From positions 3,129,501 through 3,193,500 of the forward strand of contig NC_012796.1 of assembly GCF_000010665.1 (NCBI RefSeq): a DNA stretch of 64,000 nt, in the 5' to 3' direction. The translations under genes were made by a program, and so were the position numbers. Below the pieces are notes generated by a model. That model worked only from the letters and a program-made list of their open reading frames with translations, was not told where the DNA came from and ran no database searches. This stretch comes from Solidesulfovibrio magneticus RS-1 (GTDB lineage Bacteria; Desulfobacterota; Desulfovibrionia; Desulfovibrionales; Desulfovibrionaceae). Position 1 is the stretch's first letter. Each line of letters starts with the position of its first letter. Positions 5,464-39,770 of this stretch are shown piece by piece.

Positions 5464-5512
5464 AAAGAGGCCTCCGGCGGCCGGGGGCCTGAGGTCCCCG
5501 GACCCCCCATCT
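5464..5512 (+). repeat. Dispersed GCCTCCGGCGGC-box hairpin repeat, copy 1
   Basis: The conserved box GGCCTCCGGCGGC is followed by a hairpin (CCGGGGGCC, TGA, GGTCCCCGG, one mismatch) and then GACCCCCC. An A/G-rich lead (AATAAAGA) precedes the box. The same architecture occurs five more times in this window (5642, 13321, 18111, 19097, 39706). This copy lies upstream of btaA on the opposite strand to that gene. Confidence 0.8.
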
Positions 5513-5580
5513 GGAAGAAAAAGGGGGGGCGGCTTCGCCGGAGAGTCATTAACGATCTTGCTTGCTCTTCCTGGAATCTT

Positions 5581-5641
5581 CCTGTTTGGGGGCGCGGTTT
5601 CCGCCAAGTTCCTCCTGACGGAAACCGCGCCCCCAATCAGG
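5581..5641. repeat. Long perfect inverted repeat between two opposed repeat copies
   Basis: An 18-bp perfect stem (TTGGGGGCGCGGTTTCCG and its complement) encloses a 15-base loop and is extended by CCTG/CAGG outside one mismatch. It sits midway between copies 1 and 2 of the dispersed repeat, which point toward each other. There is no T-run, so it is not a standard terminator. Confidence 0.75.
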
Positions 5642-5695
5642 GAGGGTCCGGGAGGGAGTAACCCCCTCCCGGCCGCCGGAGGCATCTTCCCCTCT
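5642..5695 (-). repeat. Dispersed GCCTCCGGCGGC-box hairpin repeat, copy 2 (inverted)
   Basis: Read on the minus strand: GGGGAAGAT, then GCCTCCGGCGGC, then a hairpin CCGGGAGGG..CCCTCCCGG with loop GGTTACT, then GACCCTCCC. It begins a few bases after the stop of the MFS gene at 5701, in the sense orientation of that transcript. Confidence 0.8.
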
Positions 5696-5700
5696 TTTTC

Positions 5701-7152
5701 TTATTTTCCCTTCATCTTACGCCTGTCTTCAATCTTCCAGGCCCATACGGCCATGGCGATGGCCACGCAGAGCAGCCCGGCCAGGGCATGGAACACCCCG
5801 GCGATACCAGCGGCCAGGGCGGCCGGCGGAGCGCTGGCGAAGTCGGCATGATCAGCGATAGAGCCGGTGGCGTGGACGATGCCGGAGAAAATCGTGGCCA
5901 CCAGCGGCAGGCCGGTGGATTGCCCGAACACCCGGGCGTAGTTGGCCAGCCCCGAACCGACGCCCAGGCGATGGGGCGGCATCTGCCCCATGATGGTCGT
6001 GTTGTTGGGGGCCTGGAAGATGCCTATGCCAAGCCCCACCGGCATGGTGCGCAGCAGATAGCCCCACCACGGCGTGTGTTCGGTGAGCGTGCCCAGGGCC
6101 AGACAGCCGCCGGTCAGGACCACCATCCCCAGCAGGCTCATGCCCCGGGCTCCGTAGCGGTCGGCCAGGCTGCCGGACACCGGAGCGGTCACGGCCATGG
6201 AAGCCGGCAGGATCATGAGCAAAAGCCCCACCTGGGTGACGCTGTAGCCTTGGCCGGCTTGCAGGAAAAACGGCATGATAAAGCCGCTGGCTCCGGTGAC
6301 GAAGACCAGGGTGGCCATGGCCAGGGGCAGGGAAATAAGCGGGTTGGCGAAAAGGCTCAGGTCGAGCATGGGGGCCGGGCTTTGGCGCTCCACCTTGATG
6401 AAGACGGCCAACCCCAGGGCGCTGGCCGCCAGGAGAATCAAGGCCGTGGCGTCGGTGGGGCCGTGGCGCTGCATGAAGGTCATGCCCAGGCAGTAACAGG
6501 CCAGGGTCAGGCAGGCGATGGCCGCGCCGGGCAGGTCGAAGCGTTCGCCCCGGCGTTGGGGCGGCAGGGCCGGCATGAAGCGGACGACGGCGAAAAGGGC
6601 CAGCAGACCCAAGGGGATGTTGAGGAGAAACAGTGCGCGCCAGCCCAGCAGGCCAATGAGCACGCCGCCCAGGGGCGGGCCGAGCATGAGGCCCATGGCC
6701 ACGGTGGCCCCGATGAATCCCAAGGCCCGGCCGCGACTGGAGGGCGGGGCGAGCTGGGTGACGATGGCCATGCCCAGCGCCTGGCTCATGGCCGCGCCAA
6801 TGCCCTGCATGGCCCGAAAACCGATGAGCCAGGACACCGACGGCGCCAGGCCGCAGCACAGCGAGGCCAGGAGAAACAGCACAAGGCCCGAGCCGAAGAT
6901 CCGCTTTTTGTCGTACATGTCGCCCAGGCGCGACACCAGAAGCAGCAGGCTGGCGATGACCAGGACGTAGCTTAAAATGACCCACTGGATGGTGGCGAAG
7001 TCCGTGGCCAGACTTTCCGTCAGGGTGGGCAGGGCCACGTTGACGATGCTCATGTCCAGCGTCGCCATGAACACCATGAGATTGACGCCGATCATGGCCA
7101 GGGCCGGGCGCGGGGTCGGGACATGGCCGGCTGGGGCGGTATGGTCTTGCAT
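5701..7152 (-). CDS. MFS drug efflux transporter, DHA2 (EmrB/QacA) family
   Basis: A 483-residue inner-membrane protein with about 14 predicted helices, as in the proton-driven DHA2 exporters. Motif D1 is seen near the start (MVFMATLDMSIVNVALPTL), motif A in loop 2-3 (SRLGDMYDKKRIFG), and a motif C-like segment in helix 5 (GATVAMGLMLGPPLGGVLIG). No membrane-fusion partner gene adjoins it, so it probably exports across the inner membrane alone. It follows the methyltransferase gene by 66 bases on the same strand and may be the last gene of that transcript. The substrate cannot be inferred. Copy 2 of the dispersed repeat lies just past its stop. Confidence 0.9.
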   Translation of the reverse strand: MQDHTAPAGHVPTPRPALAMIGVNLMVFMATLDMSIVNVALPTLTESLATDFATIQWVILSYVLVIASLLLLVSRLGDMYDKKRIFGSGLVLFLLASLCCGLAPSVSWLIGFRAMQGIGAAMSQALGMAIVTQLAPPSSRGRALGFIGATVAMGLMLGPPLGGVLIGLLGWRALFLLNIPLGLLALFAVVRFMPALPPQRRGERFDLPGAAIACLTLACYCLGMTFMQRHGPTDATALILLAASALGLAVFIKVERQSPAPMLDLSLFANPLISLPLAMATLVFVTGASGFIMPFFLQAGQGYSVTQVGLLLMILPASMAVTAPVSGSLADRYGARGMSLLGMVVLTGGCLALGTLTEHTPWWGYLLRTMPVGLGIGIFQAPNNTTIMGQMPPHRLGVGSGLANYARVFGQSTGLPLVATIFSGIVHATGSIADHADFASAPPAALAAGIAGVFHALAGLLCVAIAMAVWAWKIEDRRKMKGK

Positions 7153-7218
7153 GAAAACGGACTTCCTTGGCTGGTCGATGCCGCCGTGTACCCCAACGGG
7201 CGGCGGCGGGGAAGCGGA

Positions 7219-8901
7219 TTATCCGGCGGTCGGCAGGCGATGGTCGAGGGAACCGTTGGTAACGGCGGCAAAGAGCCAATGGGTGAAGCGGGCCAGACTG
7301 TCCGGGTCGCAGCCCCGGGACAGGGGATGGCGGGCGAGCAAGCGGTCCATGGCCGGCGGCAGGGCGGCCGGCCCCGCCTCGCCCGGCTGGCGGGCATGGG
7401 CGGCGAGCTTTTGCCCGACGAGATTGACGCCCCGGTCCAGGAGCAGTTGGAGCGGCATGGGGCAGGCCAGCTGCCATTCGAGGTCAATAAAACGCACGTC
7501 GCCTGTGGCCGGATGGCGCAGGACATTGCCGGGATGGGCGTCGAGCAGGCTGCCGGGCAGCCACGGTCCGGCCATAGAACCAGTATAGAGCTCCCGGCCC
7601 AGCTGGGCGCGGCAAAAGGCGACAAAGGCCTCGGCCGCCCCGGGCATGGCCGGTCTGGCCCGGGAGGCAGTCAGCTCCATCCACTCGGTGACCAAGCGGC
7701 CGGCCCCGACCGGATCGCCGTCTTCCACGGCGTCAAGCACCAGCTCCAGATAGCTGGCGTAGCCCAGGCGATACGACTCGGACGGCTTGACGCTCTGGCG
7801 GCCGGCGGCAAAGACGGCCGGCGGCAGGCCGTGGAGGTTTCGCCGGGTGACGGTGACGCCGCCCGCGCCGTCATCGACGAACCGCGTCATGGTCTGGAAA
7901 TGCGGTGGACAGGAGTCGGCGTTGACGGCCACGGCCAGGGTCGCCGCGTTGGCGGCCAGCAGGGGCGCGTCGGGGCTGGGCGCGGCCAGGACGAGAAAGG
8001 AATTCATGAAATGGCCGGCCACGCCGCCGGCCAGGGCCGAGCGCATAAAGGCCCGTTCGGTGAAAGCCGGTGCGGCCCGGCCGCCGGGATCGGCCGTGGG
8101 CAGCTCCAGCAGGGGCAAGGCGGCAAAGCCGGGCAGGCCAAGCGCCCGCTCGGACAGGACGCTGTCGGGCATCTTGTAATCCGGGGACGGAAAGTGCCAG
8201 CTTGTGGCGGCAAACCCGGCCCGGGCCAGCATGGCGGCCAGGGTTGGCCGGTCGAAGGTGCGCACGCCCGGGTTGCCGGGGTAGCCGTTTAGGCCGTCGT
8301 AGGGCCGGCCGGTATGGTCCTCGGGCAGGCCGGCCAGGTATTTGTGGCCCATGCGGTTTTCGATGGCCAGCACCAGGCAGCCGCTTGGGGCGAGATAGCG
8401 CCGGGCCTCGGTGAGAAGCTTGTGGTAGGGCTCGGGACCGTCCACGAAGGCCCCGGCGTATTCTAGAACACCCACCAGGGTGACCACGTCGAAGCAGCCG
8501 TTATAGGACAGCCCCACGGCGTTGGCCGTGACCACGTCCAGATTGGCGGCGTCCGGCAGGCGGGCCTTGATGACGGCGGCCCGGTCAGGCGAACCTTCCA
8601 CGGCGGTGACCGCGTGGGGCAGGCTGGTCAAGTGGGCGGTCAGCGCGCCGCAGCCGGCCCCGAGTTCCAGGATGCGCCCGGTGGGGCCGAAATCCAGCCA
8701 GGACAGCAAGGTCTTGCGGCGCGGCGAGAGATGGTAGCGCACGGCCCAGGGCGCGTCCTTGGGGTAGAGCTCGTATTCGTTGACCCTGCGGTCGCGAAAA
8801 AAACGCAACAGCCAGGCTTCCGAACCGTCGCTGTAGGCCACGGGCCGCCTGTCATCCGAAGCGTTTGGCTGGTCCTGGGATTCTTTTTCGTCGTCGGCCA
8901 C
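7219..8901 (-). CDS. Class I SAM-dependent methyltransferase with long C-terminal region
   Basis: A 560-residue cytoplasmic protein. The methyltransferase domain lies at about residues 60-260: motif I ILELGAGCGALTAHL, an acidic motif II in AVEGSPDRA, and FDVVTLVGVLEY as motif IV. The segment GHKYLAGLPEDHTGRPYDG is of a kind often found in surface-polysaccharide methyltransferases. The C-terminal half (from about residue 280) has no domain I can name, although the stretch DAHPGNVLRHPATGDVRFID looks like the ATP-site loop of aminoglycoside-phosphotransferase-like kinases (HPGN...FID). It starts 19 bases after the aminotransferase stop, suggesting co-transcription. Target unknown. Confidence 0.8.
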   Translation of the reverse strand: MADDEKESQDQPNASDDRRPVAYSDGSEAWLLRFFRDRRVNEYELYPKDAPWAVRYHLSPRRKTLLSWLDFGPTGRILELGAGCGALTAHLTSLPHAVTAVEGSPDRAAVIKARLPDAANLDVVTANAVGLSYNGCFDVVTLVGVLEYAGAFVDGPEPYHKLLTEARRYLAPSGCLVLAIENRMGHKYLAGLPEDHTGRPYDGLNGYPGNPGVRTFDRPTLAAMLARAGFAATSWHFPSPDYKMPDSVLSERALGLPGFAALPLLELPTADPGGRAAPAFTERAFMRSALAGGVAGHFMNSFLVLAAPSPDAPLLAANAATLAVAVNADSCPPHFQTMTRFVDDGAGGVTVTRRNLHGLPPAVFAAGRQSVKPSESYRLGYASYLELVLDAVEDGDPVGAGRLVTEWMELTASRARPAMPGAAEAFVAFCRAQLGRELYTGSMAGPWLPGSLLDAHPGNVLRHPATGDVRFIDLEWQLACPMPLQLLLDRGVNLVGQKLAAHARQPGEAGPAALPPAMDRLLARHPLSRGCDPDSLARFTHWLFAAVTNGSLDHRLPTAG

Positions 8902-8920
8902 GGGTCCGTCCTAGTTTCGG

Positions 8921-10090
8921 CTATTGCCGGGCGAACCATTCGGCCAGGCGGTCGCAGGCGGTGTCGATCTCGGCCGGCTCGGCTCCGTAGGACAGGCGAA
9001 GGCTTCCCTCGCCGCCCGGCCCGAAGCTGTCGCCCGGGATGGTAATGACCCGGGCTTCGCGAATGAGCCGCGTGGCCACGTCCATGGGCGCGCCCGGGAC
9101 CGGATAGCGGGCCATGATGTAAAAGGCTCCGGCCGGCGCGTTGTAGGCCAGGCCGTCAATGGCGTCGAGGCGGGCCATGATGCGCGCCCGGCGCTCCCGC
9201 AGGGCGTCGATGAAGCCGGCGTAGACCGCCTGGGGGCCGGTGAGCGAGGCCAGGGCGGCGATCTGGGAAGGGGTCGGGGCGCAGATAGCCGTACAGTCGT
9301 GGACCTTGAGCATCTGCCCCATGATCGGCTCCGGGGCAAAGGCAAAGCCCACGCGCCAGCCGGTCAGGGCGAAGCGTTTGGAAAAGCTGCCCACGGCCAC
9401 GAGGTTGTCGCGCAGCTCCGGCAGGCTGGCCAGGGAAAAGGCCGGCTCGTCATAGGCCAGGGCGTCGTAGGTGTCGTCGCAGATGATGGTCAGTCCGTGG
9501 GTCAAGGCGACCTCGGCCACGGCCAGCAGGTCGTCTTTGGCAAAGACCGCGCCCGTGGGGTTGTGGGGCGAATTGATGATAATCGCCCGGGTGCGATCCG
9601 TCACGGCGGCGGCCACGGCCTCGGCGTCCAAGCTCCAGTCCTGGCGGCGCAGGGGCACAAGGACGGGCTGGGCTTCGGCCAGGAGCACCTGTTCCACGTG
9701 GGAGGGATAGAACGGCTCGGGCACGATGACTTCGTCGCCGCGCTCGCACAGGCACAAAACGGCGCACAACAGCGCCTCCATGCCGCCCACGGTGATGGCG
9801 ATTTCCCGGTCCGGATCGGCGATGAGGCGTTTTTCGGCGGCCAGCAGATCGGCCACGGCCCGGCGCAGCTCGGGCATGCCGGGCTGGAGCGAGTACTTGC
9901 CGGCCGAGGGCTGGTCGGCCAAGGCCCGGCAGACGGCCTCGGCCACGTGGGGCGGGGTGGCGAACGACGGCACGCCCTGGCCCAGGGAGGCGCAGCCGCC
10001 GACCTCGCTGGCCAGCATGGGCATGAGCTTGGTGGCGGAAATCTTGATGTTCTTGGCGCGCTGGCTGAAGCGGTGGGAAAGACTTGTCAC
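8921..10090 (-). CDS. PLP-dependent aminotransferase, class I/II fold type I
   Basis: A 389-residue aminotransferase of the AspC/AAT fold. The PLP-binding lysine is K238 in GSFSKRFALTGWRVGF. The cofactor-contacting segment NSPHNPTG is at 174-181 and the aspartate that pairs with the pyridine nitrogen is in ICDDTYDALAY. R246 of GWRVG matches the usual fold-type-I pattern. Length and motifs are complete. The substrate could be aspartate, an aromatic or another amino acid, and the sequence does not decide. The methyltransferase gene follows after 19 bases. Confidence 0.9.
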   Translation of the reverse strand: MTSLSHRFSQRAKNIKISATKLMPMLASEVGGCASLGQGVPSFATPPHVAEAVCRALADQPSAGKYSLQPGMPELRRAVADLLAAEKRLIADPDREIAITVGGMEALLCAVLCLCERGDEVIVPEPFYPSHVEQVLLAEAQPVLVPLRRQDWSLDAEAVAAAVTDRTRAIIINSPHNPTGAVFAKDDLLAVAEVALTHGLTIICDDTYDALAYDEPAFSLASLPELRDNLVAVGSFSKRFALTGWRVGFAFAPEPIMGQMLKVHDCTAICAPTPSQIAALASLTGPQAVYAGFIDALRERRARIMARLDAIDGLAYNAPAGAFYIMARYPVPGAPMDVATRLIREARVITIPGDSFGPGGEGSLRLSYGAEPAEIDTACDRLAEWFARQ

Positions 10091-10255
10091 GACGGCTCCC
10101 TACGACATGCCCGGGCTTGTCGGCGGCCCGGGGAAAAAACGGCGCTGGCCGGGGCGGCAACAACGGCGGATGCCGTCGTTGCCAAGGGAAACGGGCAATC
10201 CGCCAAGACCACCCGGCGGCGAATACACAGCCCGTGCTGGGCGGCCGGGGCCGCT

Positions 10256-10633
10256 CTACTGCGGCACGGCAATCTTGGGATGGGACGAGGCCGGGGCCGG
10301 AGCCAGGGGCGGCGCGGCCAGGGCCTTTTCAAATTCGGCCACGGAATAGCCGGAAACGGCCCGGCCGTTGATCATGACCAGGGGCACGCCGCGGCCGCCG
10401 TAGCGTTTGAAGCGCATGTTGGCGGTGGCGTCCTTGTCGATGTCATACATCGTATAGGGAATGCCCTTGCCGTCGAAATAGGCCTTGGCCTTGGTGCAGT
10501 AGGGGCACCAGCTCGTAACGTACAGTTCGACGGTCGGGCCGGCGGCGCGGGCCGGGGCGGTGGCCGCAAGGACGGCCAGGACGAGGCAGGCGGCGGCAAA
10601 TCGGCCAAGGGCCGGGAAAACAATGCGGGGCAT
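10256..10633 (-). CDS. Exported glutaredoxin-like thiol protein
   Basis: A 125-residue protein with a cleavable signal peptide (ending near ATAPARA) followed by a glutaredoxin domain. The redox motif is CPYC at 43-46 in YVTSWCPYCTKAK, and the glutathione-site cis-proline is in RGVPLVMING. Export of a glutaredoxin-type domain suggests a periplasmic thiol-disulfide role, although glutathione itself may be absent. I start at ATG 10633, with GGAAG about seven bases upstream, rather than the TTG at 10660. The C-terminal tail is proline/alanine rich. It precedes the aminotransferase on the same strand with a 165-base gap. Confidence 0.85.
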   Translation of the reverse strand: MPRIVFPALGRFAAACLVLAVLAATAPARAAGPTVELYVTSWCPYCTKAKAYFDGKGIPYTMYDIDKDATANMRFKRYGGRGVPLVMINGRAVSGYSVAEFEKALAAPPLAPAPASSHPKIAVPQ

Positions 10634-10756
10634 GGCGTGCTTCCGGTTGGGGGTTGGCAATCACTGGTGGTAGCCGGGGGGAGCGGGCTGCGTCAAGCCG
10701 GGCGTGCTCACGGCGGCGGTTGCCGGGGCGGCACGGGAGGTGCTAGGGAGGCGCCC

Positions 10757-11206
10757 ATGCCGGGGTACAAGACGCATATCGTGGGCGCGGCGGCGGTGAC
10801 CGGCGGGGCGCTGGCCGCCACGTCGTGGCTGGGGGTCTATCGGCCCGGGTTCGAGACCATGGTCTGCCTGGGGCTTTTTTCCGTGTTGGGCGGGCTTTTC
10901 CCGGACGTGGACACCGATTCCAAGGGGCGGCGCATTTTTTACGGCGCGGCCCTGGTGGTGGACGCCTTTCTCATTTTCCGGGAGCAATACCGCTATGCGG
11001 CAGTGCTGGGCTTTTGCGCCCTGCTGCCGGCCATCGGCTCTCATCGCGGCTGGACCCACTCGTGGTGGGCGGCCTTGCTTATCCCAAGCTCCGTGCTGCT
11101 CGCGCCCATGCTGCTTCTCGGCCTGCCGTGGAAGCCCTTCCTGCCGTATTACGCGGCCACGGTGCTGGGCTATTTCTCCCACCTGCTGCTGGACCGCAAA
11201 TTCTAG
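10757..11206 (+). CDS. YdjM-like membrane-bound metal-dependent hydrolase
   Basis: A 149-residue integral membrane protein of the YdjM/DUF457 family, labelled as metal-dependent hydrolase. Conserved polar segments are an N-terminal H in YKTHIVGAA, the acidic GLFPDVDTDSKGRR, the histidine pair of GSHRGWTHSWWAA and the final SHLLLD. These His/Asp residues probably bind a metal at the membrane face. The ATG has GGGAG six bases upstream. A much longer frame is open through this region but upstream of 10757 it is only antisense to other genes. Substrate unknown. Confidence 0.85.
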   Translation: MPGYKTHIVGAAAVTGGALAATSWLGVYRPGFETMVCLGLFSVLGGLFPDVDTDSKGRRIFYGAALVVDAFLIFREQYRYAAVLGFCALLPAIGSHRGWTHSWWAALLIPSSVLLAPMLLLGLPWKPFLPYYAATVLGYFSHLLLDRKF

Positions 11207-11335
11207 CGTCGCGCCCCTTAAAAAAGACGAGATTTTTTCAGAAAAATCCGTGGCTTGGGTTTGTTACCCACGAAACGCCCTAGAGGCGCTTTCCGTGGAC
11301 GCGGCACGAGCGTCGTATCTCCCACGTCTTCATCC

Positions 11336-12178
11336 TTACGGCGTCAGGTGCAGGCCATCGACAAGGCCCTGGTACTGCGGCGTGGCGCGAAAGCTTTCAA
11401 TGGCGGCGTCGAGACGAGCCATTTCCCCGGGGCTGACGCCCAGGCCGCACATGATGTGGCGTCGTCCACCCAGGGGGGAATCGGCCAGACGCACGATCCG
11501 TACGTGCTTGCGCAAGGCGGGCTTGGAGGCAAATATCCAAGCCAGCTCCTCGGGTTCGACCAGCATGGCGTCCAGCCGGTCCTTGGCCAGCAGTTCGACC
11601 ATATGGGCCGTGTCGGCAAAACGCTTGGTCGCCGGATACGCAGCCAGGAGCTGGTCGTATTCAGCGCCATAGGAAAAGCCTTCGCGCAGGCCCCAGTGCC
11701 AGCCTGCGGCGAGCAGATCGGCCAGAAAGGGGCTGCAGGTCTCGGGCACGGACAACGTGGCGCGCACGGCCACGGCGGTGGGCTGGTTGCGGTAGAGGGG
11801 TTCGCTGAAGCGGGCAAAGGCCTCGCGTTCCGCGGTCTTGTACCAGCCCACGGCACAGGCCCGGCTCGGGCCATCCTTGAGCATGGCCACGACGCGGCCC
11901 GGCGGCATTTCGCGCACCGTCACGGGGATACCGGCCTGGGCAAAGACGGTCAGAGCCGTGGTGAGCAGAAAACCGCCCGAAGGCTGGCCATGTTGCAGTT
12001 GATAATAGGGAGGGCGGTCAAAGACGAGCAGCGACAAAGGCTCCTGGCTCTGTCCCGCTGTTGGCGTCAGAGCCGGGACCAGAAGAGCCAGCGCCGCCAA
12101 AACGGCACGCAACAGACGTCGCGGCTTGGTTTTTTTCGGGAATAACCGCGTTACAGTCCTTGGCGGCAGAGATTCCAT
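11336..12178 (-). CDS. Periplasmic solute-binding protein, family 3 type (SBP_bac_3)
   Basis: About 280 residues with an N-terminal signal peptide (RRLLRAVLAALALLVPAL...GQSQE) and a periplasmic type II binding fold. Segments such as LSLLVFDRPPYYQLQHGQPSGGF at the mature start and MVELLAKDRLDAMLVEPEEL near the C-terminus are typical of family 3 binding proteins. No permease or ATPase gene adjoins it, so it may be an orphan sensor or receptor-like protein rather than part of an ABC importer. I use ATG 12178 rather than the TTG at 12214; the choice is uncertain because the ribosome site (AAAAGGG) is close to the ATG. Confidence 0.75.
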   Translation of the reverse strand: MESLPPRTVTRLFPKKTKPRRLLRAVLAALALLVPALTPTAGQSQEPLSLLVFDRPPYYQLQHGQPSGGFLLTTALTVFAQAGIPVTVREMPPGRVVAMLKDGPSRACAVGWYKTAEREAFARFSEPLYRNQPTAVAVRATLSVPETCSPFLADLLAAGWHWGLREGFSYGAEYDQLLAAYPATKRFADTAHMVELLAKDRLDAMLVEPEELAWIFASKPALRKHVRIVRLADSPLGGRRHIMCGLGVSPGEMARLDAAIESFRATPQYQGLVDGLHLTP

Positions 12179-13312: not shown

Positions 13313-13320
13313 CAGAAATC

Positions 13321-13370
13321 AAGATGCCTCCGGCGGCGAGGACCTTACGCCCCCGGCCCCCGAAAGCGGT
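13321..13370 (+). repeat. Dispersed GCCTCCGGCGGC-box repeat, copy 3 (degenerate)
   Basis: AAGAT then GCCTCCGGCGGC is followed by a C-rich stretch, but the hairpin arms no longer pair well. It lies between the convergent cheV and antiporter genes, sense to cheV, nine bases after its stop. Confidence 0.65.
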
Positions 13371-13380
13371 AAAAGGGATG

Positions 13381-18101: not shown

Positions 18102-18110
18102 GAGGAGAGA

Positions 18111-18167
18111 AGAAGAGGCCTCCGGCGGCCAAAGGGGCTGAGCCCCTTTGGAAACCCCACCTGGGGA
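18111..18167 (+). repeat. Dispersed GCCTCCGGCGGC-box hairpin repeat, copy 4
   Basis: AGAAGAG, then GCCTCCGGCGGC, then a near-perfect hairpin CAAAGGGGCTGAGCCCCTTTG and GAAACCCC. It starts about ten bases after the antiporter stop, sense to that gene, and ends before the convergent gene at 18176. Confidence 0.8.
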
Positions 18168-18175
18168 GGGCCGGG

Positions 18176-19093
18176 TCAGCGCCGGGTCTTGAAGGCTTGG
18201 CGGGCCGCCGCCAGATCAAACAGCGCGTGGCCTACGCTCTTAAAAACGATTGGCCCTGCCGGGCGCGGCGGCGCGTCGTCAAGCACGTTCTCCACGGGCG
18301 TCACCCGCCCCCAATCCACGCCGGCCCGCAGATAATCCCCGGCCTCGACCTTGGCCGAAGCAAGATCATCCACAAAAAGCGACGCCCGCTCCACCAGCGA
18401 GGCCGGCAGCTCGGCGGCTTGGGGCGTAAACGATCCCACCGCCGCGACAAACGCCCCGTCCCGCACGTTGTCCACAAGGACCGGCTCGGAACTCGTCGTC
18501 GCCGTGACAATGAGCCCGGCCCGGGCCGTCAGCCGGTCGCGCTCGGCTTCATCGGCCGTGACGGCCACCGTGACGCCCATGGCCGCCAGTTCCCTGGCCG
18601 CTGCCTCAAGCAGCACCGGGTCGCGGCCGCACAACACGATTTCCTGCACCCCAAGGCCCTGCCAAAAGGCCGCCGCGTGCCCCCGCGCCTGCACCCCGTT
18701 GCCGATGATGACCAGCGGCCCGCCCGGTTCCCTGGCCAACCGCCGCGCGGCAAGCAGCGTCACCGCCGCCGTACGCCGGGCCGTGACCGTGGGGCCGTCC
18801 AGGCTTCCCAACCGCTCGCCCGTGGCCGCGTCCAGCACCGTCACCTCGCCCTGGATCACCGGCCGCTCCCGGTTGCCGGGATGCACGGTGATGGTCTTGA
18901 CCACGGCCATGGCCCCGTCCGCCGCCGGCATGCACAAAAGCACCCCGCCAGGCACAGGCACGGCCAGACGCTCGGGCGCGAAAGCCTCGCCGGCCTTCCT
19001 GGCCCGCAACACGTCGGCCACGGCGTCGGAGAGGGCCAGATAGTCGAAAAGGCCGACAACGGGGGGTGTGGCGGTGGTTGTGGCTGTGGACAT
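18176..19093 (-). CDS. Ornithine cyclodeaminase/mu-crystallin family protein
   Basis: A 305-residue NAD(P)-dependent enzyme. The Rossmann motif is at about 127-135 (LVIIGNGVQARGH; family usual GxGxQA), preceded by the substrate loop GPTVTARRTAAVTLLAARRL and followed by the acidic VDDLASAKVEAGDYL. Family members include ornithine cyclodeaminase, delta-1-pyrroline-2-carboxylate reductase and alanine dehydrogenase. The context does not say which reaction applies, so I leave the symbol empty. It is transcribed alone, with dispersed repeat copies on both sides. Confidence 0.85.
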   Translation of the reverse strand: MSTATTTATPPVVGLFDYLALSDAVADVLRARKAGEAFAPERLAVPVPGGVLLCMPAADGAMAVVKTITVHPGNRERPVIQGEVTVLDAATGERLGSLDGPTVTARRTAAVTLLAARRLAREPGGPLVIIGNGVQARGHAAAFWQGLGVQEIVLCGRDPVLLEAAARELAAMGVTVAVTADEAERDRLTARAGLIVTATTSSEPVLVDNVRDGAFVAAVGSFTPQAAELPASLVERASLFVDDLASAKVEAGDYLRAGVDWGRVTPVENVLDDAPPRPAGPIVFKSVGHALFDLAAARQAFKTRR

Positions 19094-19096: not shown

Positions 19097-19141
19097 GGAG
19101 GCCTCCGGCGGCCGGGGGGATGATCCCCCCGGACCCCTGCA
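19097..19141 (+). repeat. Dispersed GCCTCCGGCGGC-box hairpin repeat, copy 5
   Basis: GGAGGCCTCCGGCGGC is followed by a perfect hairpin CCGGGGGGA-TGA-TCCCCCCGG and then ACCCC. It lies immediately upstream of the gene that starts at 19093 on the opposite strand. Confidence 0.8.
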
Positions 19142-19315
19142 ACGGGAAACAATTTATGGGGCCAGGAACGCGCTGTTTCAAGGTCGCAAAGAATAAAAGG
19201 GAGCCATTGAAGCTTGCCAACCGACGCAGTTCCGGCGGCCAAGCGATCCACGCTCCGTCACCCTACCGCCGCTTGACACGGATGGCAAACCGCCCGCCAA
19301 AGCGCCGCATCCAAC

Positions 19316-32805: not shown

Positions 32806-35800
32806 TTACATCTGCTGGCCGCAATTCGGACAGAATTTGAAGCCGTCGTCGCCCAAGGGCTGGCGGCACCCCGGGCAATCCTTGGAAACCGGGGCCAGTT
32901 CGACCAGGAGCTCCCCTTCCTTGACCGGCACCATCTTGCGGTCGTTGGCGTAATCGGCGTTTTTGAGCACTCGTTTGACCGTGGCGTCAAGGGGAGCGGC
33001 CACGGTTTTTTCCTGCTTCATGACGGAGATGTTGAACAATTCCTCGCCGGTCTTGATGTAGTCGTTGGGCGAGACGTGCATGACCCACAGGTCGCCGGAG
33101 ACCGGCGCGCCCACGTGGTAGGGGTTATTGGGGTCGGCCATCTCGACCTGGCTGGCCGGCCCGTTCTGGGCGGCGGCCACCTGGACCTGATAGCTCAGGA
33201 TTTCCGAATCCAGGACATAGCGGACGGTGGCCATGCCGCTGTTGTCCGGGCGCGAGATGTCGAGCAGGGACAGGTGGTGGGGCTTGCCCTGGCTGTCGGC
33301 GAAGGTCAGCTCCTCGCCCGGCTCCAGACCCTCGAACCACACGTCCAGGGGAAGGTTGTTGGGATCGCCGAATTTCTTTCGAAATTCCATGGTCTTGAGC
33401 GCGTCGCCGGGGTGGTTCAAGTAGAGCACGAACTCTTCGTTGGACGGCTCGCGGCCCAACTGCTTGGTCAGGGCGGCCATCTCGGCTTCCATGTCCACCT
33501 CGCCCAGGGCGTCCAGGGGCGAATCCTCGGTGCGCGAGGCAATGGCTTCCTTCCACTCCGAGCCAAAGGCGCTCTCGTAGACCCAGTCGGGCGGGAACCC
33601 GAGCGGCATCTTGCCGAACTTGCCCAAAAGCAGGTTGCGGAAGGCGTCGTTGCAGTTGGCGTACAGCAGCAGCCGGTCGTGCTTGGCCGCCGGGGTCAGG
33701 CACTCGTCGCAGTTCTCGGACACGGCCTCAAGCACTTCGAGCATGTCCTTGACGGCCCGTTCGCCGCCGACCTTGTAGGCGCTGGTGACGGCCAGAAACG
33801 CCGTGTTCCAGGTGATCTGGGACCCCGGGGTGACGTCGTGGTAGCGCACGATCTTGCGGGTGCCGGCCAGGAACTTGAGCATGTAGGGCAGCAGGTGGAT
33901 GTAGCCCTGCTTCATGGCCCCTTCCTGGGAGGAGCTGGTGGCCCCGCCGGGCATGGCGTGTTCCACCACGTCGTAGTCGATGCCCTGGAAATAGGGCGCG
34001 GTGTAGCGGTCGTAGTAGGGCATGACCTGCTTGAGCACGAAGTTGGCGGCCCGGATCATGTCCTTGTTCGCCTTGGTCAGAGCCACGGGCACGCCCAGGT
34101 CCTCTTCGATATAGGCCGCCGTGGACAGCACCTCGCCCTGGCCGTACCAGCGCACGGAAGCGCCGATGGCGGTGTCGACGATGTGGCAGCCGGCTTCGGC
34201 GGCGGCGCCCACGGCCGGGACGAACAGCCCGTCCGTGTAGTGGCGGTGGTAGTCGACGACCAGATCGGGGTAGGCCTTGCGGATGGCGGTAATCAGCTCG
34301 CGCACGAAACGCGGCGGACACATGCCGGCCATATCCTTCAGGCACAAGATGATGCTCTTGGCCGCCTTGGCCTTGGTCATGCCGCCGGCCTTGGCGGTCT
34401 GGTCGAGAATGGCCTCCAGCACGCCGAGGTAATGGGGCACGTCGAAGCCCCGGGCGTAGGACAGGGAGATGGCCGGCTCGAAGATGATGCCCGGCCGCGA
34501 CAGGGCGACCTCGGCAAATGGATACATATTGTCAATATGATTGAGAAAATCAAAACAGCGAATGATGTCGTAGTGCTCGCAGATCATCTCGCCCGTCAGC
34601 CGCATGAGGTTGCGCGGTTGGGGCTTGTAGCCCAGCACGTTGGTGGAGCGGATGAGCAGCTGCTTCATGGTCTTGGGCGCGAACTCGTTCCACTTGGCCG
34701 CCTCGGAGAAGGGGTAGGTCATGTTGGCCATCATGGCCACGTGGAAGTGCGCGCCGCCGCCGTTTTCCAGGGAGAAGAAGCCGCAGTTGTCGAGATACGG
34801 CCCGACCAGCTCATCCTCGGCCAGCCGGAAGCGGTTGCCGCTGTTGGACTGGGTGATGTCGCGGGTGGTGGTGTCCACGAAATGGACCTTGCCGGAGTCG
34901 CGCACCATGTCCAGGACGGCCTGACGGTCGCCGCGCGGATAGGGGCTTTCCGGCGAACGCAGATCAGCCTCGGGCATGTGGGGCGTGAAGCGCCCCAGGC
35001 GGTAGTCCTCGCGGCCCCGGTACTTGCCGAGCTGGACATGGGGGTTGTAGCCCCGGGCCGAGACCTCGGCCACCAGCCAGGCCAGGCGCATGGCCTCTGA
35101 CTCCTCGTCCTGGTAGTTGAGCAGATAGGGGTTCTGGGTGATGAACTTGGTGTCGAAATCCCCTTTCATGAACTCCGGATGGCGCAGAATCTGGCGGTGG
35201 AACGGGATCGTGGTCTTGAGCCCGCCGATGATGTACTCGCGCAGCGCCCGTTCCATGACGGCCACGACCTTGGGCCAGTTGCGGCCGTAGGAAATAAGCA
35301 GCGCCCCGGCCGAGTCGTACTGGGTGGGGAATTCGTAGCCGGCCGTCAGGCAGGAATCCAGCCGGATGCCCTGGCCGCCCGGGGACAGGTAGCGGGTGAC
35401 CGAACCAGCGTTGGGGGCGAAGTTCTGCTTGGGGTCCTCGCAGTTGATGCGCAGCTGCATGGCGTGGAGGAACGGCCGGGTGTCCACGCAGTTAAAACGC
35501 AGCTTGCCGCCGAAAGCGATGTTGATCTGCTCTTCGACCAAATCCACGCCGTAGCGGCATTCGGTGATGCCGTGCTCGACCTGCAGCCGGGTGTTGACCT
35601 CGATGAGGTACGGCTCGCCGTTGGCGTCGACCAGAAATTCGACCGTCGCCAGCGAATAATAGCCGGTCTCGCGCACCAGCCGCTCGCCGTAGTCCTTGAG
35701 GCGCTGGCGCAGCTCGTCGGTCATGCCGCGCCAGGGCGACGGCGTGATTTCCACGAGCTTTTGGTGGTTGCGCTGCACCGAGCAGTCGCGTTCGTCAAAG

Positions 35801-36501
35801 GCGAACACGTTGCCGAAGCGGTCGCCGGCCACCTGGATTTCGATGTGGCGCACGCTGGTCAAGAGCTTTTCAACGAAAAGATGCGGGTTGCCAAACGAGG
35901 CCTGGGCCATGGCCGAAGCCTTGGAAAAGGCGGATTCGAGCTGGGCTTCGGAATAAATTTCGTAGATGCCCCGGCCGCCGCCGCCGCCCTCGGCCTTGAG
36001 CATGATGGGGAAGCCGATTTTTTTGGCGATTTCCCGGGCCTCGGGGATGGTGACCGAGCCTTCGGAACCGGGCACCACCGGGATGCCCAGGCTCATGGCC
36101 AGCCGGCGCACTTCGACCTTGTTGCCCAGGCTTTTCATGGCGTCGGCCGAGGAGCCGATGAAGATGATGCCGGCCTCGGCGCATTTGCGGGGAAATTCGC
36201 AGTCTTCGGAGGCAAATCCCCAGCCCGGATGGATGGCGACCACGCCCCGGGCCTTGGCTTTCTTGATGATGCCGTCGATGTCGAGATAGGCCCGGGGATC
36301 GGGGCCCAGGGTGATGAGTTCATGGGCGCCGGCGGTGGCCGGGGACGCCATGTCCACATCGGTTACGGTGAGCACGGGAATGGCGCGCAGGCGTTCGCGG
36401 ATGGAACGCAGCACCCGGCGGGCGGAAATGCCCCGGTTGGCGACAAGAATCTTCTTTCCTTCAACCTCGGAAAGCACTTCCTGAAACGTCTTGGCGATCA
36501 T
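32806..36501 (-). CDS. pyc: Pyruvate carboxylase with C-terminal zinc ribbon
   Basis: A 1231-residue biotin enzyme converting pyruvate and bicarbonate to oxaloacetate. The biotin carboxylase domain is N-terminal (about 15-470): glycine-rich AEGGGGGRGIYEI, EVNTRLQVEHG. The carboxyltransferase barrel follows (about 550-850): DTTTRDITQSNSG, LENGGGAHFHVAM, DMAGMCPPRFV, DYHRHYTDG. The biotinyl domain is near the C-terminus, with the acceptor lysine in SVMKQE rather than the usual AMKM. After it come 40 residues ending CPGC...CPNCG, a zinc ribbon not usual in pyruvate carboxylase. The biotin ligase gene precedes it by 69 bases and PEP synthase follows, making an anaplerotic and gluconeogenic operon. 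Confidence 0.92.
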   Translation of the reverse strand: MIAKTFQEVLSEVEGKKILVANRGISARRVLRSIRERLRAIPVLTVTDVDMASPATAGAHELITLGPDPRAYLDIDGIIKKAKARGVVAIHPGWGFASEDCEFPRKCAEAGIIFIGSSADAMKSLGNKVEVRRLAMSLGIPVVPGSEGSVTIPEAREIAKKIGFPIMLKAEGGGGGRGIYEIYSEAQLESAFSKASAMAQASFGNPHLFVEKLLTSVRHIEIQVAGDRFGNVFAFDERDCSVQRNHQKLVEITPSPWRGMTDELRQRLKDYGERLVRETGYYSLATVEFLVDANGEPYLIEVNTRLQVEHGITECRYGVDLVEEQINIAFGGKLRFNCVDTRPFLHAMQLRINCEDPKQNFAPNAGSVTRYLSPGGQGIRLDSCLTAGYEFPTQYDSAGALLISYGRNWPKVVAVMERALREYIIGGLKTTIPFHRQILRHPEFMKGDFDTKFITQNPYLLNYQDEESEAMRLAWLVAEVSARGYNPHVQLGKYRGREDYRLGRFTPHMPEADLRSPESPYPRGDRQAVLDMVRDSGKVHFVDTTTRDITQSNSGNRFRLAEDELVGPYLDNCGFFSLENGGGAHFHVAMMANMTYPFSEAAKWNEFAPKTMKQLLIRSTNVLGYKPQPRNLMRLTGEMICEHYDIIRCFDFLNHIDNMYPFAEVALSRPGIIFEPAISLSYARGFDVPHYLGVLEAILDQTAKAGGMTKAKAAKSIILCLKDMAGMCPPRFVRELITAIRKAYPDLVVDYHRHYTDGLFVPAVGAAAEAGCHIVDTAIGASVRWYGQGEVLSTAAYIEEDLGVPVALTKANKDMIRAANFVLKQVMPYYDRYTAPYFQGIDYDVVEHAMPGGATSSSQEGAMKQGYIHLLPYMLKFLAGTRKIVRYHDVTPGSQITWNTAFLAVTSAYKVGGERAVKDMLEVLEAVSENCDECLTPAAKHDRLLLYANCNDAFRNLLLGKFGKMPLGFPPDWVYESAFGSEWKEAIASRTEDSPLDALGEVDMEAEMAALTKQLGREPSNEEFVLYLNHPGDALKTMEFRKKFGDPNNLPLDVWFEGLEPGEELTFADSQGKPHHLSLLDISRPDNSGMATVRYVLDSEILSYQVQVAAAQNGPASQVEMADPNNPYHVGAPVSGDLWVMHVSPNDYIKTGEELFNISVMKQEKTVAAPLDATVKRVLKNADYANDRKMVPVKEGELLVELAPVSKDCPGCRQPLGDDGFKFCPNCGQQM

Positions 36502-36570
36502 GCTGTCCTCTGACCCCTGAGGGCGACCTGTCCATTCTCTTTTAGAGTGACGATCCGGCGGGGGCCGGCA

Positions 36571-37584
36571 TCAAAGGAGGGATATACTCCCGCAATGAAG
36601 CGTCAAATCCTGCCCTGGCCCGGATTCGCCACGCAGCAGCCGAAGTCCCCCGTCCTCGGCCAACCCGACGATCCGTGCCCGAAACCCGTCCGATCCGCTC
36701 TCGCGCACGAAGACTTCCCGGCCAAGCCAAGCCAGACGACGCTCGACAAAACGGGACAATGCACTCGAGTCCGATAGCGCAACGCACTGGAAGTAGCAGG
36801 TTTGCCCAAACTTCACAAGTTCGCCCCACAACGTAACCGCGCCCGGCACTTCGCCAAAGTCGGCCAACGCGGCGGCCGGGGCGGCGTGATCCCGACGAAG
36901 CGACGCCGCATCCGGGGCCTCGGCGCAGTTTATGCCGACGCCGGCCACAATACGGCCATGTCGTTCTTCAAGGAGGATTCCCGCGACCTTGCGCCCCTCG
37001 ATCAGAAGATCGTTGGGCCATTTGACCGTGGCGGCGAATCCCCGGGCATAGAGCGCATCGGCCAGACAGGCCCCGACCACCACCGGGGCCATGGCGGCAA
37101 GCGCCCCCTCCCCGGCCGGCCAGGACAGGGCGGCGTAGATGTTGCCCGGCGGCGAAATCCATTCCCGACGCATCTGGCCCCGGCCGCTGGTCTGGGACAC
37201 GGCGACAACCGAGGCAAAAGGCGGCAGCAGGCCGGCCTCGGCAAAGGCCCAGGCCGCGTCCAGGCTCGTGGCGCACGGGCCGACGACCAGGATGGCCGGA
37301 GCGCCGGCCAGGGCCGGGCCTTCGCCGCGCAGCCAGCGCCCGGCCGCCGGCCCATATTCGGCCCCCAGCTCTACCGTCCGCCACGGCCCGAGCCGGGCCA
37401 TGTCGGCGGCCCACAAGGGGTGCCCGGCGGCCAGAAATCCCGGTGAAACCGGCCCGGCCAGACCCGGCCCGCCCGATTCCCACAGCCACACGCCGCCGCT
37501 TTCGAAGGGGTTTTGCGACAAGGGGCGGCTGGCCCCTGGATTTTTGACGGCATTTGGGACAATGTCCGCGCCGGAGTCATGCAT
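36571..37584 (-). CDS. birA: Biotin--[carboxylase] protein ligase (BirA class I)
   Basis: About 338 residues. The catalytic biotin/lipoyl-ligase domain is clear from about residue 100: SQTSGRGQMRREWISPPGN (biotinyl-AMP loop), KWPNDLLI and KVAGILLEE, and a C-terminal beta domain. There is no DNA-binding helix-turn-helix; instead about 80-90 N-terminal residues of unknown role precede the core. It biotinylates acceptor lysines such as that of the pyruvate carboxylase encoded next. The ATG at 37584 overlaps the start of cca on the other strand by two bases. A start inside the N-terminal region is possible and would remove this overlap. Confidence 0.88.
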   Translation of the reverse strand: MHDSGADIVPNAVKNPGASRPLSQNPFESGGVWLWESGGPGLAGPVSPGFLAAGHPLWAADMARLGPWRTVELGAEYGPAAGRWLRGEGPALAGAPAILVVGPCATSLDAAWAFAEAGLLPPFASVVAVSQTSGRGQMRREWISPPGNIYAALSWPAGEGALAAMAPVVVGACLADALYARGFAATVKWPNDLLIEGRKVAGILLEERHGRIVAGVGINCAEAPDAASLRRDHAAPAAALADFGEVPGAVTLWGELVKFGQTCYFQCVALSDSSALSRFVERRLAWLGREVFVRESGSDGFRARIVGLAEDGGLRLLRGESGPGQDLTLHCGSISLL

Positions 37585-38758
37585 GAAACGGTATCTCGTA
37601 GGCGGCGCGGTCCGCGACATATTGCTCGGCCGGCCGGTTGTGGATCAGGATTATCTCATTGTCGACGCCACGCCCGAGGCGTTCGTGAGACGGTATCGAA
37701 GGGCTCGGCAGGTCGGCAAGACCTTTCCGGTCTTCATGCTGGGCAGCGCCCAGTACGCCTGGCCGCGCGGCGACAGCGTGGCCGAGGATCTGCTGGCCCG
37801 GGACCTGACGATAAACGCCATGGCCATGGGCGATTCCCGGGAGATCGCCGGGCGGCTGCATTTCCACCCCCTGGCCCTGTCCGACCTGCGCGACCGGTGG
37901 CTGCGCCCGTGCGGCGAGATGTCCATGTTCGACGATCCGCTGCGGGTCTACCGGGCAGCCCGGTTCGCCGCCTCGTTGCCGGATTTTTCGCCCCACCCCG
38001 AGCTTGTGGCCCAGATGCGGGCCGTGGCCGCCTGCGGCGTGCTCGGCGACGTCTTTGCCGAGCGGGTGGCCCAGGAAGTGCGCAAGGCCCTGGGCACGAC
38101 CAAGCCGTCACGCTTTTTCCAGCTCCTGGCCGACACCGGCTGTTTGCTGCCCTGGCTGCCCGAACTCGAAGCCGCCCGCCACGTGCCGGCCGGCCCGCCC
38201 GAGCACCACGACGGCAGCGTGTTTGACCACATGCTCGACATGGTCGACATCCTGGCCGGCGACGCCCTGGCCGGCTGGATGGCCGTGTGCCATGACCTGG
38301 GCAAGATTGCCACGCCCGAATGCGAATGGCCGCGCCACCACGGCCACGACGACCGTGGCGAAGGCGTGGCCGGGGAACTCGGCCGGCGGCTGAAGCTTCC
38401 CAACCGGGTGCGCGAGGCCGGCGAGGCCGCGGCCAAGCTCCACATGAAAGCCGCCCGCTATCACGAACTGCGGGCCGGCACGCGGGTGGACATGCTCACC
38501 TGGCTGCACAAGCACGACATGGTGGAACCGCTTTTCGAGGTGGTGCGCGCCGACAGCGGGGCCAGCGTCCTGCCGCAAGCCAAGCGCGACCTCAAGGTGA
38601 TGCTCTCGGTGCATCTGCCCGGCAAGCAGCGCCAGCGCGGTCCGCTTTCGGGCGAGCGGCTGCGCAACCTGCGCTGCCAGAAGCTGGCCGAGCACGACAA
38701 AGCCCAGGGCCGCGCCCCCGAAGGCGTGGACGGCGAACAAGGGCAGGCCCAGGGATAG
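37583..38758 (+). CDS. cca: CCA-adding tRNA nucleotidyltransferase with HD domain
   Basis: A 391-residue class II nucleotidyltransferase. The N-terminus is MKRYLVGGAVRDILLGRP, followed by the metal-binding D-x-D (VVDQDYLIVD), RDLTINAMAM and the R-x-x-R-x-x-R-type DPLRVYRAARFAASL segment. An HD phosphohydrolase domain follows: FDHMLDMVD and CHDLGKIATPE, as in E. coli-type CCA enzymes with phosphatase activity. It completes or repairs the 3' CCA of tRNA. GGAG stands about eight bases before the ATG. The start lies head-to-head with birA on the opposite strand. Confidence 0.92.
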   Translation: MKRYLVGGAVRDILLGRPVVDQDYLIVDATPEAFVRRYRRARQVGKTFPVFMLGSAQYAWPRGDSVAEDLLARDLTINAMAMGDSREIAGRLHFHPLALSDLRDRWLRPCGEMSMFDDPLRVYRAARFAASLPDFSPHPELVAQMRAVAACGVLGDVFAERVAQEVRKALGTTKPSRFFQLLADTGCLLPWLPELEAARHVPAGPPEHHDGSVFDHMLDMVDILAGDALAGWMAVCHDLGKIATPECEWPRHHGHDDRGEGVAGELGRRLKLPNRVREAGEAAAKLHMKAARYHELRAGTRVDMLTWLHKHDMVEPLFEVVRADSGASVLPQAKRDLKVMLSVHLPGKQRQRGPLSGERLRNLRCQKLAEHDKAQGRAPEGVDGEQGQAQG

Positions 38759-38819
38759 GCCTGGGCTGGCCCGCGGCCCGACCTGACCAGCCGGCCGCTA
38801 CGGCGGCAAGGAGAAGCCC

Positions 38820-39239
38820 ATGGCCCTCGACCTGACCAGCCTGACCAAGGCCATCGACGCCCTGGATCGGTCGCTGGCCGCCACGGCCGACGGACTTCCA
38901 GCCATCCCCCCGAACCTGCGCGACACGGTGCGGGCCGGCATCATCCAGCATTTCGTAGTGGCTTACGATCTGTGCTGGAAATTTCTCCAACGCTGGCTGC
39001 GGGAGAACGTCTCCCCGACCGATGCCGACTTCCCGCGCACCCACAAGGATCTTTTTCGCCAGGCGGCCCGGGCCGGCCTGCTCGACGACCCCACACCCTG
39101 GTTCGGTTTCGGCGATGCCCGCAACCTGACCTCCCACACCTATGACGGCGAAACCACCCTGGACGTCTGCGAGGCGGCTCGGCGCTTCCTGCCCCAGGCC
39201 AAGGAACTGCTGGCCCGGCTGGCCGACCGCAATGATTGA
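38820..39239 (+). CDS. HepT-like HEPN toxin (nucleotidyltransferase substrate-binding family)
   Basis: A 139-residue helical protein of the HEPN/HI0074 family. The ribonuclease motif R-x4-H-x-Y is intact: R101, H106 and Y108 in RNLTSHTY. In characterised MntA-HepT pairs HepT is the RNase toxin, and MntA inactivates it by attaching AMP to the motif tyrosine. The next gene, overlapping by eight bases, encodes the matching nucleotidyltransferase. GGAGAAG precedes the ATG. It follows the cca gene by 61 bases. Family proteins are often plainly called nucleotidyltransferase substrate-binding proteins; the toxin role here is inferred from the intact motif pair. Confidence 0.85.
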   Translation: MALDLTSLTKAIDALDRSLAATADGLPAIPPNLRDTVRAGIIQHFVVAYDLCWKFLQRWLRENVSPTDADFPRTHKDLFRQAARAGLLDDPTPWFGFGDARNLTSHTYDGETTLDVCEAARRFLPQAKELLARLADRND

Positions 39240-39525
39240 CCTCGCCCCGGACCAGCTCGACACCGTGCGGGCCATCCTGGCCGCCCACCTGCCCGAGGCC
39301 ACGGTTTTCGTCTTTGGTTCGCGGGCGCGCGGCACGGCACGGCCCCACTCCGACCTCGATCTGGCCGTGGCGGCCGACGCGCCCCTGCCCCTGGGCCGGC
39401 TTGAAGCCCTGCGTGACGCCTTTGCCGCCTCCAACCTGCCCATGCAGGTCGACGTGGTGGATTACCGGGCCGTCTCGACCGCGTTTCGGCGGATCATCGA
39501 CGCCACCAAAGCCCCCTTCGAATAG
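39232..39525 (+). CDS. MntA-like minimal nucleotidyltransferase antitoxin
   Basis: A 97-residue protein with the signature G-S-x10-D-x-D: GS at 29-30 and D41/D43 in GSRARGTARPHSDLDLAV. Such minimal nucleotidyltransferases adenylylate the partner HEPN toxin. The start ATG at 39232 lies inside the 3' end of the HepT gene, with an eight-base overlap that ensures coupled translation. A longer frame is open upstream but only because of overlap with the toxin gene. Downstream is a bidirectional-type hairpin, so the pair ends the transcript that includes cca. Confidence 0.85.
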   Translation: MIDLAPDQLDTVRAILAAHLPEATVFVFGSRARGTARPHSDLDLAVAADAPLPLGRLEALRDAFAASNLPMQVDVVDYRAVSTAFRRIIDATKAPFE

Positions 39526-39600
39526 CCTCAACAGGCCGGCGGGAGCATCCATCGACCGCCCTGCCCGCCTCTTGAAACAGACGCACCACGTATCGCCGAT

Positions 39601-39640
39601 AAAAAAACGCCGGGACGGCGACCGTCCCGGCGTTTCAATA
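39601..39640. terminator. Hairpin terminator, bidirectional type
   Basis: A 14-bp perfect stem (AAACGCCGGGACGG and complement) with loop CGA. The A-run on its left gives a T-run on the minus strand, so it probably ends lon transcripts and possibly the mntA transcript from the other side. Confidence 0.7.
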
Positions 39641-39705
39641 GCATCTTCAGGCGAAGCCTGGCCTCATAGCAGCCAGCGTTGCCGGCCGACTCCTCCCCCT
39701 TTACC

Positions 39706-39770
39706 CTTTTTCCCATTCGGGGGGTCTGGGGGCCTCAGGCCCCCAGCCGCCGGAGGCACTCTTCCCTTCT
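39706..39770 (-). repeat. Dispersed GCCTCCGGCGGC-box hairpin repeat, copy 6 (inverted)
   Basis: On the minus strand AAGAGT is followed by GCCTCCGGCGGC, then a perfect hairpin CTGGGGGCCTGAGGCCCCCAG, GACCCCCCG and ATGGGAAAAAGGG. It lies about 40 bases past the lon stop, sense to lon. Confidence 0.8.

Follow-up and report, generated by a model that had tools for sequence, protein, structure and literature searches.

A stretch of 64,000 nucleotides from Solidesulfovibrio magneticus RS-1 (contig NC_012796.1, positions 3,129,501 to 3,193,500; hereafter the window) carries six copies of a dispersed, non-coding intergenic repeat made up, in order, of a purine-rich leader, the 12-letter box GCCTCCGGCGGC, a hairpin with variable arms and a tail that mirrors the hairpin. 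The repeat lies behind stop codons in sense orientation, is present at some orthologous places and absent from others, and is spread over distant bacterial groups. The explanation favoured here, to which a probability of about 0.4 is given on the strength of the sequences, is that it is a gene-end repeat providing a putative stem-loop at the 3' end of transcripts. Box and hairpin were first noticed in a reading of the window alone, the original prediction; the relation between arm and tail and the spread across phyla are new to this analysis.

The exact box occurs six times in the window, at 5470-5481(+), 5672-5683(-), 13326-13337(+), 18118-18129(+), 19101-19112(+) and 39746-39757(-), and all six copies of the original prediction were recovered. 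Allowing up to one mismatch gave 19 matches, eight of them from four palindromic places that were each counted on both strands; 100 shuffles averaged 3.3, and none of them (0/100) reached 19. The search of the whole genome that had been called for found 173 + 182 = 355 exact copies, above chance and compared with five for the reversed box. Anatomy was studied in 40 sampled 20-kb stretches together with the window (864 kb) and six further stretches. The 57 copies taken from these (own copies) all have a perfect stem of 6 bp or more, box matches without such a stem being left out. The A/G-rich lead is real, with 86% A+G at positions -15 to -6 of these copies, and a purine leader is likewise typical of copies in other Desulfovibrionales. 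Stems are 6-11 bp long in 56/57 copies and 21 bp in one, and the loop is TGA, TAA, TCA or TTA in 42/57. Stem types within one genome include CCGGGGGCC, CTGGGGGCC, CCGGGAGGGGG, CCAGGAGGGGC, CCAGGAGAGGC, CCAAAGGGGC, CCAGGGC and CCGGGGGGA, and in some genomes units are chained as hairpin-tail-hairpin-tail.

The observation that differing arms remain complementary in five window copies also held, the stem being near-perfect at 5470, lost at 13326 and perfect in the others. In an alignment of 60 copies picked from 111 distinct ones, 98.5% of 520 stem cells were paired compared with 73.4% after shuffling, and all nine stem pairs changed on both sides. Cells with a double change numbered 143, compared with 39 after shuffling. 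A caveat is that the presence of a stem was the criterion for choosing rows, which biases these counts towards it. The covariance model built from the 60 copies, four of which are window copies, scored five copies in the window at 49.9-57.5 bits and the decayed 13326 copy at 23.3 bits, and made at least 150 matches in the genome (150 of 13,475 candidates scored). A weak match at 62368 (18.4 bits) was set aside as it is without a box.

Tails resembling GACCCC, as originally described, do exist, as one variant among tails whose letters change with the arm. The tail is a near parallel complement of the 5' arm, that is, a mirror of the 3' arm: the arm AGGAGAGG is followed by ACCTCTCC, GGGAGGG by ACCCTCCC, AGAGGG by ACTCCC, AAGGAGG by ATTCTCC and AAAGGGG by AATCCCC, the first one or two tail letters usually being A regardless of the arm. 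Over 57 distinct arms the local mirror score between tail and arm averaged 5.11 compared with 3.76 (sd 0.11) when tails were swapped, and none of 300 swaps was as high. A tail that directly repeats the 3' arm also scored above its control (4.72 versus 3.75), because many arms cannot distinguish mirror from direct repeat; where short copies can, the mirror wins for 24 arms and the direct repeat for eight, with 25 ties (one-sided sign p 0.0035). The direct repeat was rejected as the poorer fit, although eight short arms favour it. Among copies with AAAG(n) arms the C-run of the tail follows the G-run of the arm (9:1 versus 25:51, Fisher p 0.0008), a test that omits 11/97 rows with no readable C-run of at least three and in which seven of the nine come from Novosphingobium, so that kinship may contribute. 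Pairing of the tail with downstream G-runs or the leader was considered and rejected. The longest tail-downstream helix averaged 4.56 against 4.55 swapped in own copies, and was close to the swapped control in the other groups (3.58/3.60, 3.78/3.76 and 4.12/4.03), so that such pairing does not explain the tail.

The mirror relation is found independently of the box. A survey of 717 palindromes with stems of at least 9 in 2.86 Mb of loci, both sides being scored (1434 sides) with arm C taken as neutral, found mirror scores of at least 10 on 19 sides and of at least 12 on 14, with none in swapped controls at either level; direct repeats reached 10 on six sides (three swapped) and 12 on none. Related long units recur in different loci, so the high-scoring sides cannot all be counted as independent. 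The best unit (L126) has a tail that tracks arm and loop over 27 letters with one gap. The long G-rich units also follow a letter code from arm to tail in which A gives T, G gives C, T gives A and C gives C rather than G. The C-to-C code fitted better in 12 of the 14 units scoring at least 12, with one tie (L198) and one case (L217) better served by C-to-G, and interior arm C stood opposite tail C 27 times, G four times, A twice and T twice (11 units, two apparently spurious). The L217 exception is an Oscillibacter unit with a pyrimidine arm, and the lower-scoring pyrimidine-arm units L217:4612 and L216:15126 also favour C-to-G. Such units form a second class in Oscillibacter G059 (L216, L217, L157), having pyrimidine arms (e.g. 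GTTACTTTTTCT, tail CAAAAAGAGC), the same box and a C-to-G mirror code.

Placement was assessed by looking, in sense and up to 80 nt on the 5' side of each box, for a stop codon that ends a frame of at least 100 codons; 38 copies close to locus edges were uncounted. Such a stop was found for 47/57 own copies compared with 17% of random positions, at a median distance of 18 nt. In the other groups it was found for 70/86 copies of other Desulfovibrionales (from loci fetched by one stem pattern, minus 13 from other groups), 8/8 of Novosphingobium, 12/18 of Oscillibacter and 7/14 of D16-76. Considering both strands, 30 own copies have a stop in sense only, four in antisense only, 17 in both and six in neither. 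The four window copies that had been placed behind a gene end (there given as 5642, 13321, 18111 and 39706) do lie there in sense by crude gene calls, at distances of 13-49 nt: 17 nt for 5683, 13 nt for 13326, 16 nt for 18118 and 49 nt for 39757. Counted over gaps of at least 60 nt, box matches numbered 19 per 75 gaps between convergent, 29 per 212 between codirectional (20 in sense) and 3 per 70 between divergent genes, and 21/73 matches fell within called open reading frames (ORFs), some being real copies in false ORFs; these counts use the same crude calls (78% coding), and the stop-codon test is the cleaner. No clear bias of replication strand was seen (5+/15- in one half, 19+/18- in the other). 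The suggested role at 3' ends is supported by this position. Ordinary intrinsic termination is not supported, as TTTT within 19 nt after the hairpin was found in 0/57 own, 0/9 Novosphingobium, 3/33 Oscillibacter/D16-76 and 4/101 other copies.

Comparison with the sister species G008 covered 151 kb, aligned in segments of 93-97% identity, and all nine intergenic box copies therein. Change per base was.012 in the tail,.044 in the hairpin,.071 in the box,.107-.117 in the leader and.124-.172 downstream. A stricter set of six copies with perfect stems, which excluded a copy close to the end of an alignment and the weaker ones at 5470 and 13326, gave.017 for the hairpin,.019 for the tail and.030 for the box. 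The tail and, less clearly, the hairpin change more slowly than the flanks in these nine copies of one species pair, to which gene conversion could contribute. The site orthologous to 18118 varies within the genus: the type is kept in G006 and G008 (one box change in the latter), one pair is missing and the tail is shorter in G007, and other hairpin types occur in G012 (at a contig end) and G013. It is empty, with a short gap, in G005, G009, G010, G002 and G003, a long gap without a box in G001, and occupied by a different, box-less long hairpin in G004. The place orthologous to 13326 in L125 keeps a 7-bp stem and has a changed box.

All 14 genomes of the genus that were searched contain 130-388 box copies (reversed control no more than 11), and the 45 other genomes of that search 0 to 153. 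Scanning GTDB genomes for a single stem type returned 111 stretches, which come from Desulfovibrionales including Solidesulfovibrio (Thermodesulfobacteriota), Oscillibacter (Bacillota) and Novosphingobium (Pseudomonadota), and also from strain D16-76 (unclassified Bacteria), SAR324 and two loosely named metagenome bins; the CCAAAGGGGC stem type of the 18118 copy occurs in Oscillibacter, D16-76, Novosphingobium and SAR324 genomes as well. Copy numbers, with the reversed control in brackets, were 601 (13) in Oscillibacter G059, 237 (6) in Novosphingobium G061, 220 (4) in Novosphingobium G068, 79 (5) in D16-76 G064 and 88 (12) in SAR324 G066. Amplification is sporadic, and relatives mostly lie close to background. 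The other 60 genomes of a 61-genome sample of the G059 family have no more than 51 copies, and among 79 of the G061 family G061, G429 (472, control 3) and G446 (45, control 5) were outstanding. In 297 genomes of the phylum of S. magneticus copies were found mainly in its own family and in G166 (92, reversed control 15), although five G166 stretches (~88 kb) were without a copy, as were two small G446 contigs. G429, the box-richest genome of its family sample, has a different stem, GCAGGCC, with the tail ACC, in an inverted pair (L302:14568 and 14787).

That the element might be a mobile, REP-like sequence was also proposed originally. Variable occupation of orthologous sites and sporadic amplification agree with mobility; mobilisation by resident RAYT transposases was rejected. 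RAYT genes (PF01797, E no more than 0.001) were found in 18/30 chosen genomes and do not track copy number, being absent from G059, G068, G010, G012, G069, G022 and G004, each with 130-601 copies (G059 and G069 are metagenome-assembled). S. magneticus itself has RAYT fragments only, and no box occurs in the 3.2-kb loci around them. In one relative, G010, two copies are themselves targets of an insertion sequence, which starts at the identical point inside the hairpin at L310:2499 and L311:10075; the L311 insertion encodes an integrase-core transposase (PF00665/PF13683) of DDE type, IS481-like by eye. Carriage by plasmids or phages received no support from BLAST at 1e-5, two copies being without a match in plasmid records and one in phage records, with queries of 46-48 nt that lie near the limit of that threshold. 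Seven IMG/VR stretches contain box and purine arm, of which L293, L295 and L297 have an element-like hairpin and tail by eye; these could be host flanks. Copies also stand at the extreme contig ends of one S. magneticus assembly (the ALAO loci L078, L113, L128, L139 and others), where they behave like assembly-breaking repeats.

If the element acts in RNA, a GC-rich hairpin would form in the nascent transcript right behind the coding region and would set or protect the mRNA 3' end against 3'-to-5' decay following Rho-dependent release or cleavage further downstream. The REP stem-loops of E. coli are believed to protect mRNA 3' ends in a similar way. The mirror tail may double back on the hairpin to form a third strand, and the repeat would have been spread by an agent other than a resident RAYT. 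Several observations weigh against such a role. The folding energy of whole copies is ordinary for their composition (z -0.58, -0.89 and -1.14 in three folded segments), and the hairpin rate of.044 is near the divergence of the whole stretch (~5-6%), half of its eight changes lying in the decayed 13326 copy. G008 differs in 4/9 boxes and 3/9 hairpins, in the 13326 copy most of all. Copies in Oscillibacter and D16-76 are without the purine leader, only some genes carry a copy, and some copies, such as 19101, stand shortly before a called start codon. That amplification is sporadic and seen in isolated genomes points to a selfish repeat rather than a needed signal, and the letter code of the long units would favour the G-rich, antisense DNA strand over the transcript.

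The idea of a selfish, REP-like repeat, mobilised so as to land preferentially behind stop codons, with little function and with conservation owed to recent copying and gene conversion, is nearly as probable as the favoured explanation, though likewise short of an even chance. It would account for the 601 copies of G059 and the outstanding G061, G429 and G446, for the different hairpin types or none that genus mates carry at the 18118 site, for inverted pairs and a recurring module, and for the modest constraint on box and hairpin. It fits less well with the seven copy-rich genomes that have no RAYT, with stems that differ by compensation in copies that are not identical, and with the retention by most compared copies of their own type in place between species. 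The least likely of the explanations is a transcription terminator of an unusual, U-tract-free kind, acting by hairpin-driven pausing or release. Position and orientation are terminator-like and convergent gaps hold more box matches than divergent ones, but TTTT is rare or nil after the hairpin in all groups and, by crude gene calls, the next codirectional gene begins 30-45 nt after the box of some copies.

It is also conceivable, though unlikely, that selection acts on DNA, the single G-rich antisense (template) strand folding into an intrastrand triplex of the hairpin and a 5' third strand, which would stall polymerase or be recognised during copying of the repeat. On the antisense strand the C-to-C code would correspond to G.G:C and A.A:T triads for an antiparallel third strand and to T.A:T and G.G:C for a parallel one. 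Such triads are canonical and need no protonated cytosine. The fit of the long units to them, the 14 of 1434 sides with mirror scores of at least 12, for which neither swapped tails nor direct repeats gave any, and the preference for the C-to-C code, with interior arm C mostly meeting tail C, speak for the triplex. On the other side, the swapped control of the interior-C test is also high (up to 17.0 versus 21.8) because the units resemble each other, and placement follows transcription, not replication. Most short copies offer too few triads for the published definition, which only 16/57 own copies satisfy, and the E. coli motif was neither seen folded in vivo nor active as a terminator (PMC4666352).

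A broader proposal, and a doubtful one, is that the element serves gene ends in distant phyla and needs a three-stranded fold to do so, selection keeping the third strand in register with the hairpin by a Hoogsteen code while run lengths alter jointly in the three strands. The code put forward for the G-rich strand would be G over G:C, A over A:T, T over T:A and G over C:G. If this is true, the element would offer a natural example in which triplex selection in bacteria can be tested by comparison, one that has spread across phyla and been amplified in isolated lineages. Bacterial genomes have for years been surveyed for potential intrastrand triplexes, but no clear role has emerged from the counts. 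The present family is found at a strict address, in sense and directly behind stop codons, in the genomes of three phyla. Its tail is the slowest-changing part in the one species pair compared, and arm and tail vary jointly in many natural variants. Two questions become testable with it: whether sequences of triplex type have a function at gene ends, and which strand and which chemistry are under selection. Were its role confined to RNA protection, it would still be a large, unannotated 3'-untranslated-region element and a cross-phylum repeat.

The individual window copies illustrate this range. The copy at 5468..5513(+) has its box at 5470-5481, the hairpin CCGGGGGCC-TGA-GGTCCCCGG with one G-T pair and the tail ACCCCCC (49.9 bits), and forms an inverted pair with that at 5636..5685(-), which has its box at 5672-5683, a GGGAGGG arm and the tail ACCCTCCC mirroring the 3' arm (55.6 bits). 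A long palindrome at 5586..5636, with arms TTGGGGGCGCGGTTTCCG and CGGAAACCGCGCCCCCAA, lies between them, and inverted copies and palindrome together (5464-5685) make up a module of ~220 bp that recurs in the genome at G000:C2:3018995 (85%) and 5213865 (75%). Modules of this form resemble the bacterial elements named BIME. The decayed copy at 13324..13366(+) has an intact box and a lost stem. At 18116..18163(+) the copy has a CCAAAGGGGC arm, the tail AAACCCC and convergent genes on both sides (57.5 bits), with a purine-rich leader at 18102..18117(+) between stop codon and box. The copy at 19099..19144(+), with a CCGGGGGGA arm (56.2 bits), is kept in place in G008 and is antisense to the gene 18176-19093(-), 7 nt upstream of whose called start the box sits. 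On the antisense strand of 19099-19112 the box complement GCCGCCGGAGGC contains GGAGG just before the called start codon, and the copy may supply a ribosome-binding site to that gene. The copy at 39714..39759(-), also kept in place in G008, has its box at 39746-39757, the hairpin CTGGGGGCC-TGA-GGCCCCCAG and the tail ACCCCCC (57.3 bits).

The earlier statement that no named family is known for the element holds within Rfam and the literature searched. Rfam gave 0 matches above the gathering threshold in the window, and no paper describing box or element was found, including papers that print CCTCCGGCGG (judged by title and the start of the abstract), in a search outside which subscription papers mostly fell; a term search of PMC3733652 likewise gave 0 matches. 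Among known systems, an intrinsic (Rho-independent) terminator is a GC hairpin followed by a U-tract. The element shares the GC hairpin just after a stop codon, but no U-tract follows directly, and a conserved 5' box and a mirror tail are added. With REP sequences and their RAYT transposases it has in common that it is a short palindrome outside genes, has a conserved tag next to its stem, reaches copy numbers in the hundreds, forms inverted pairs and has insertion sequences inside copies. The tag here is GCCTCCGGCGG, however, not GTAG or CGTC, the tail is tied to the stem, and the cognate Y1_Tnp gene expected in the genome, usually beside copies, does not accompany the element.

PMC4666352 defines an intrastrand triplex motif (ITxF) by three mirror-related stems of 6-15 nt, loops of 1-6 nt and at most one mismatched triad. 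In a class III test modelled on it, 16/57 own copies, 4/101 of other Desulfovibrionales, 0/33 of Oscillibacter/D16-76 and 0/9 of Novosphingobium passed, and most copies are therefore not members by this rule; that the third stretch mirrors the 3' arm and does not directly repeat it, which the rule also demands, was found. The E. coli representative described there, BoxC or TM_ECO, has the consensus CCCTCNCCC N3-6 GGGNGAGGG N3 GGGNGAGGG without strand bias and is a class II purine motif of near-fixed sequence, with no typical gene distance and more often upstream of ORFs; it was reported without an orientation or position rule and had no promoter or terminator activity (Holder et al. 2015). The element is not a member of that family, since the sequences differ and it has a strong sense bias behind stop codons. 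It also has an invariant box and many covarying stem types, is class III on the sense and class I on the antisense strand, and in most copies stays below the published stem length. The element resembles BoxC, PIT and TM_ECO as a dispersed intergenic repeat of ~35-45 nt, a hairpin followed by a mirror-related third stretch, with inverted pairs, high copy numbers in some genomes and absence from relatives; the want of plasmid matches for two copies and of a phage match for one is a further likeness to TM_ECO (PMC4666352). The closest known kind is the intrastrand-triplex repeat of the BoxC/PIT type, and the likeness is strong in the long units.

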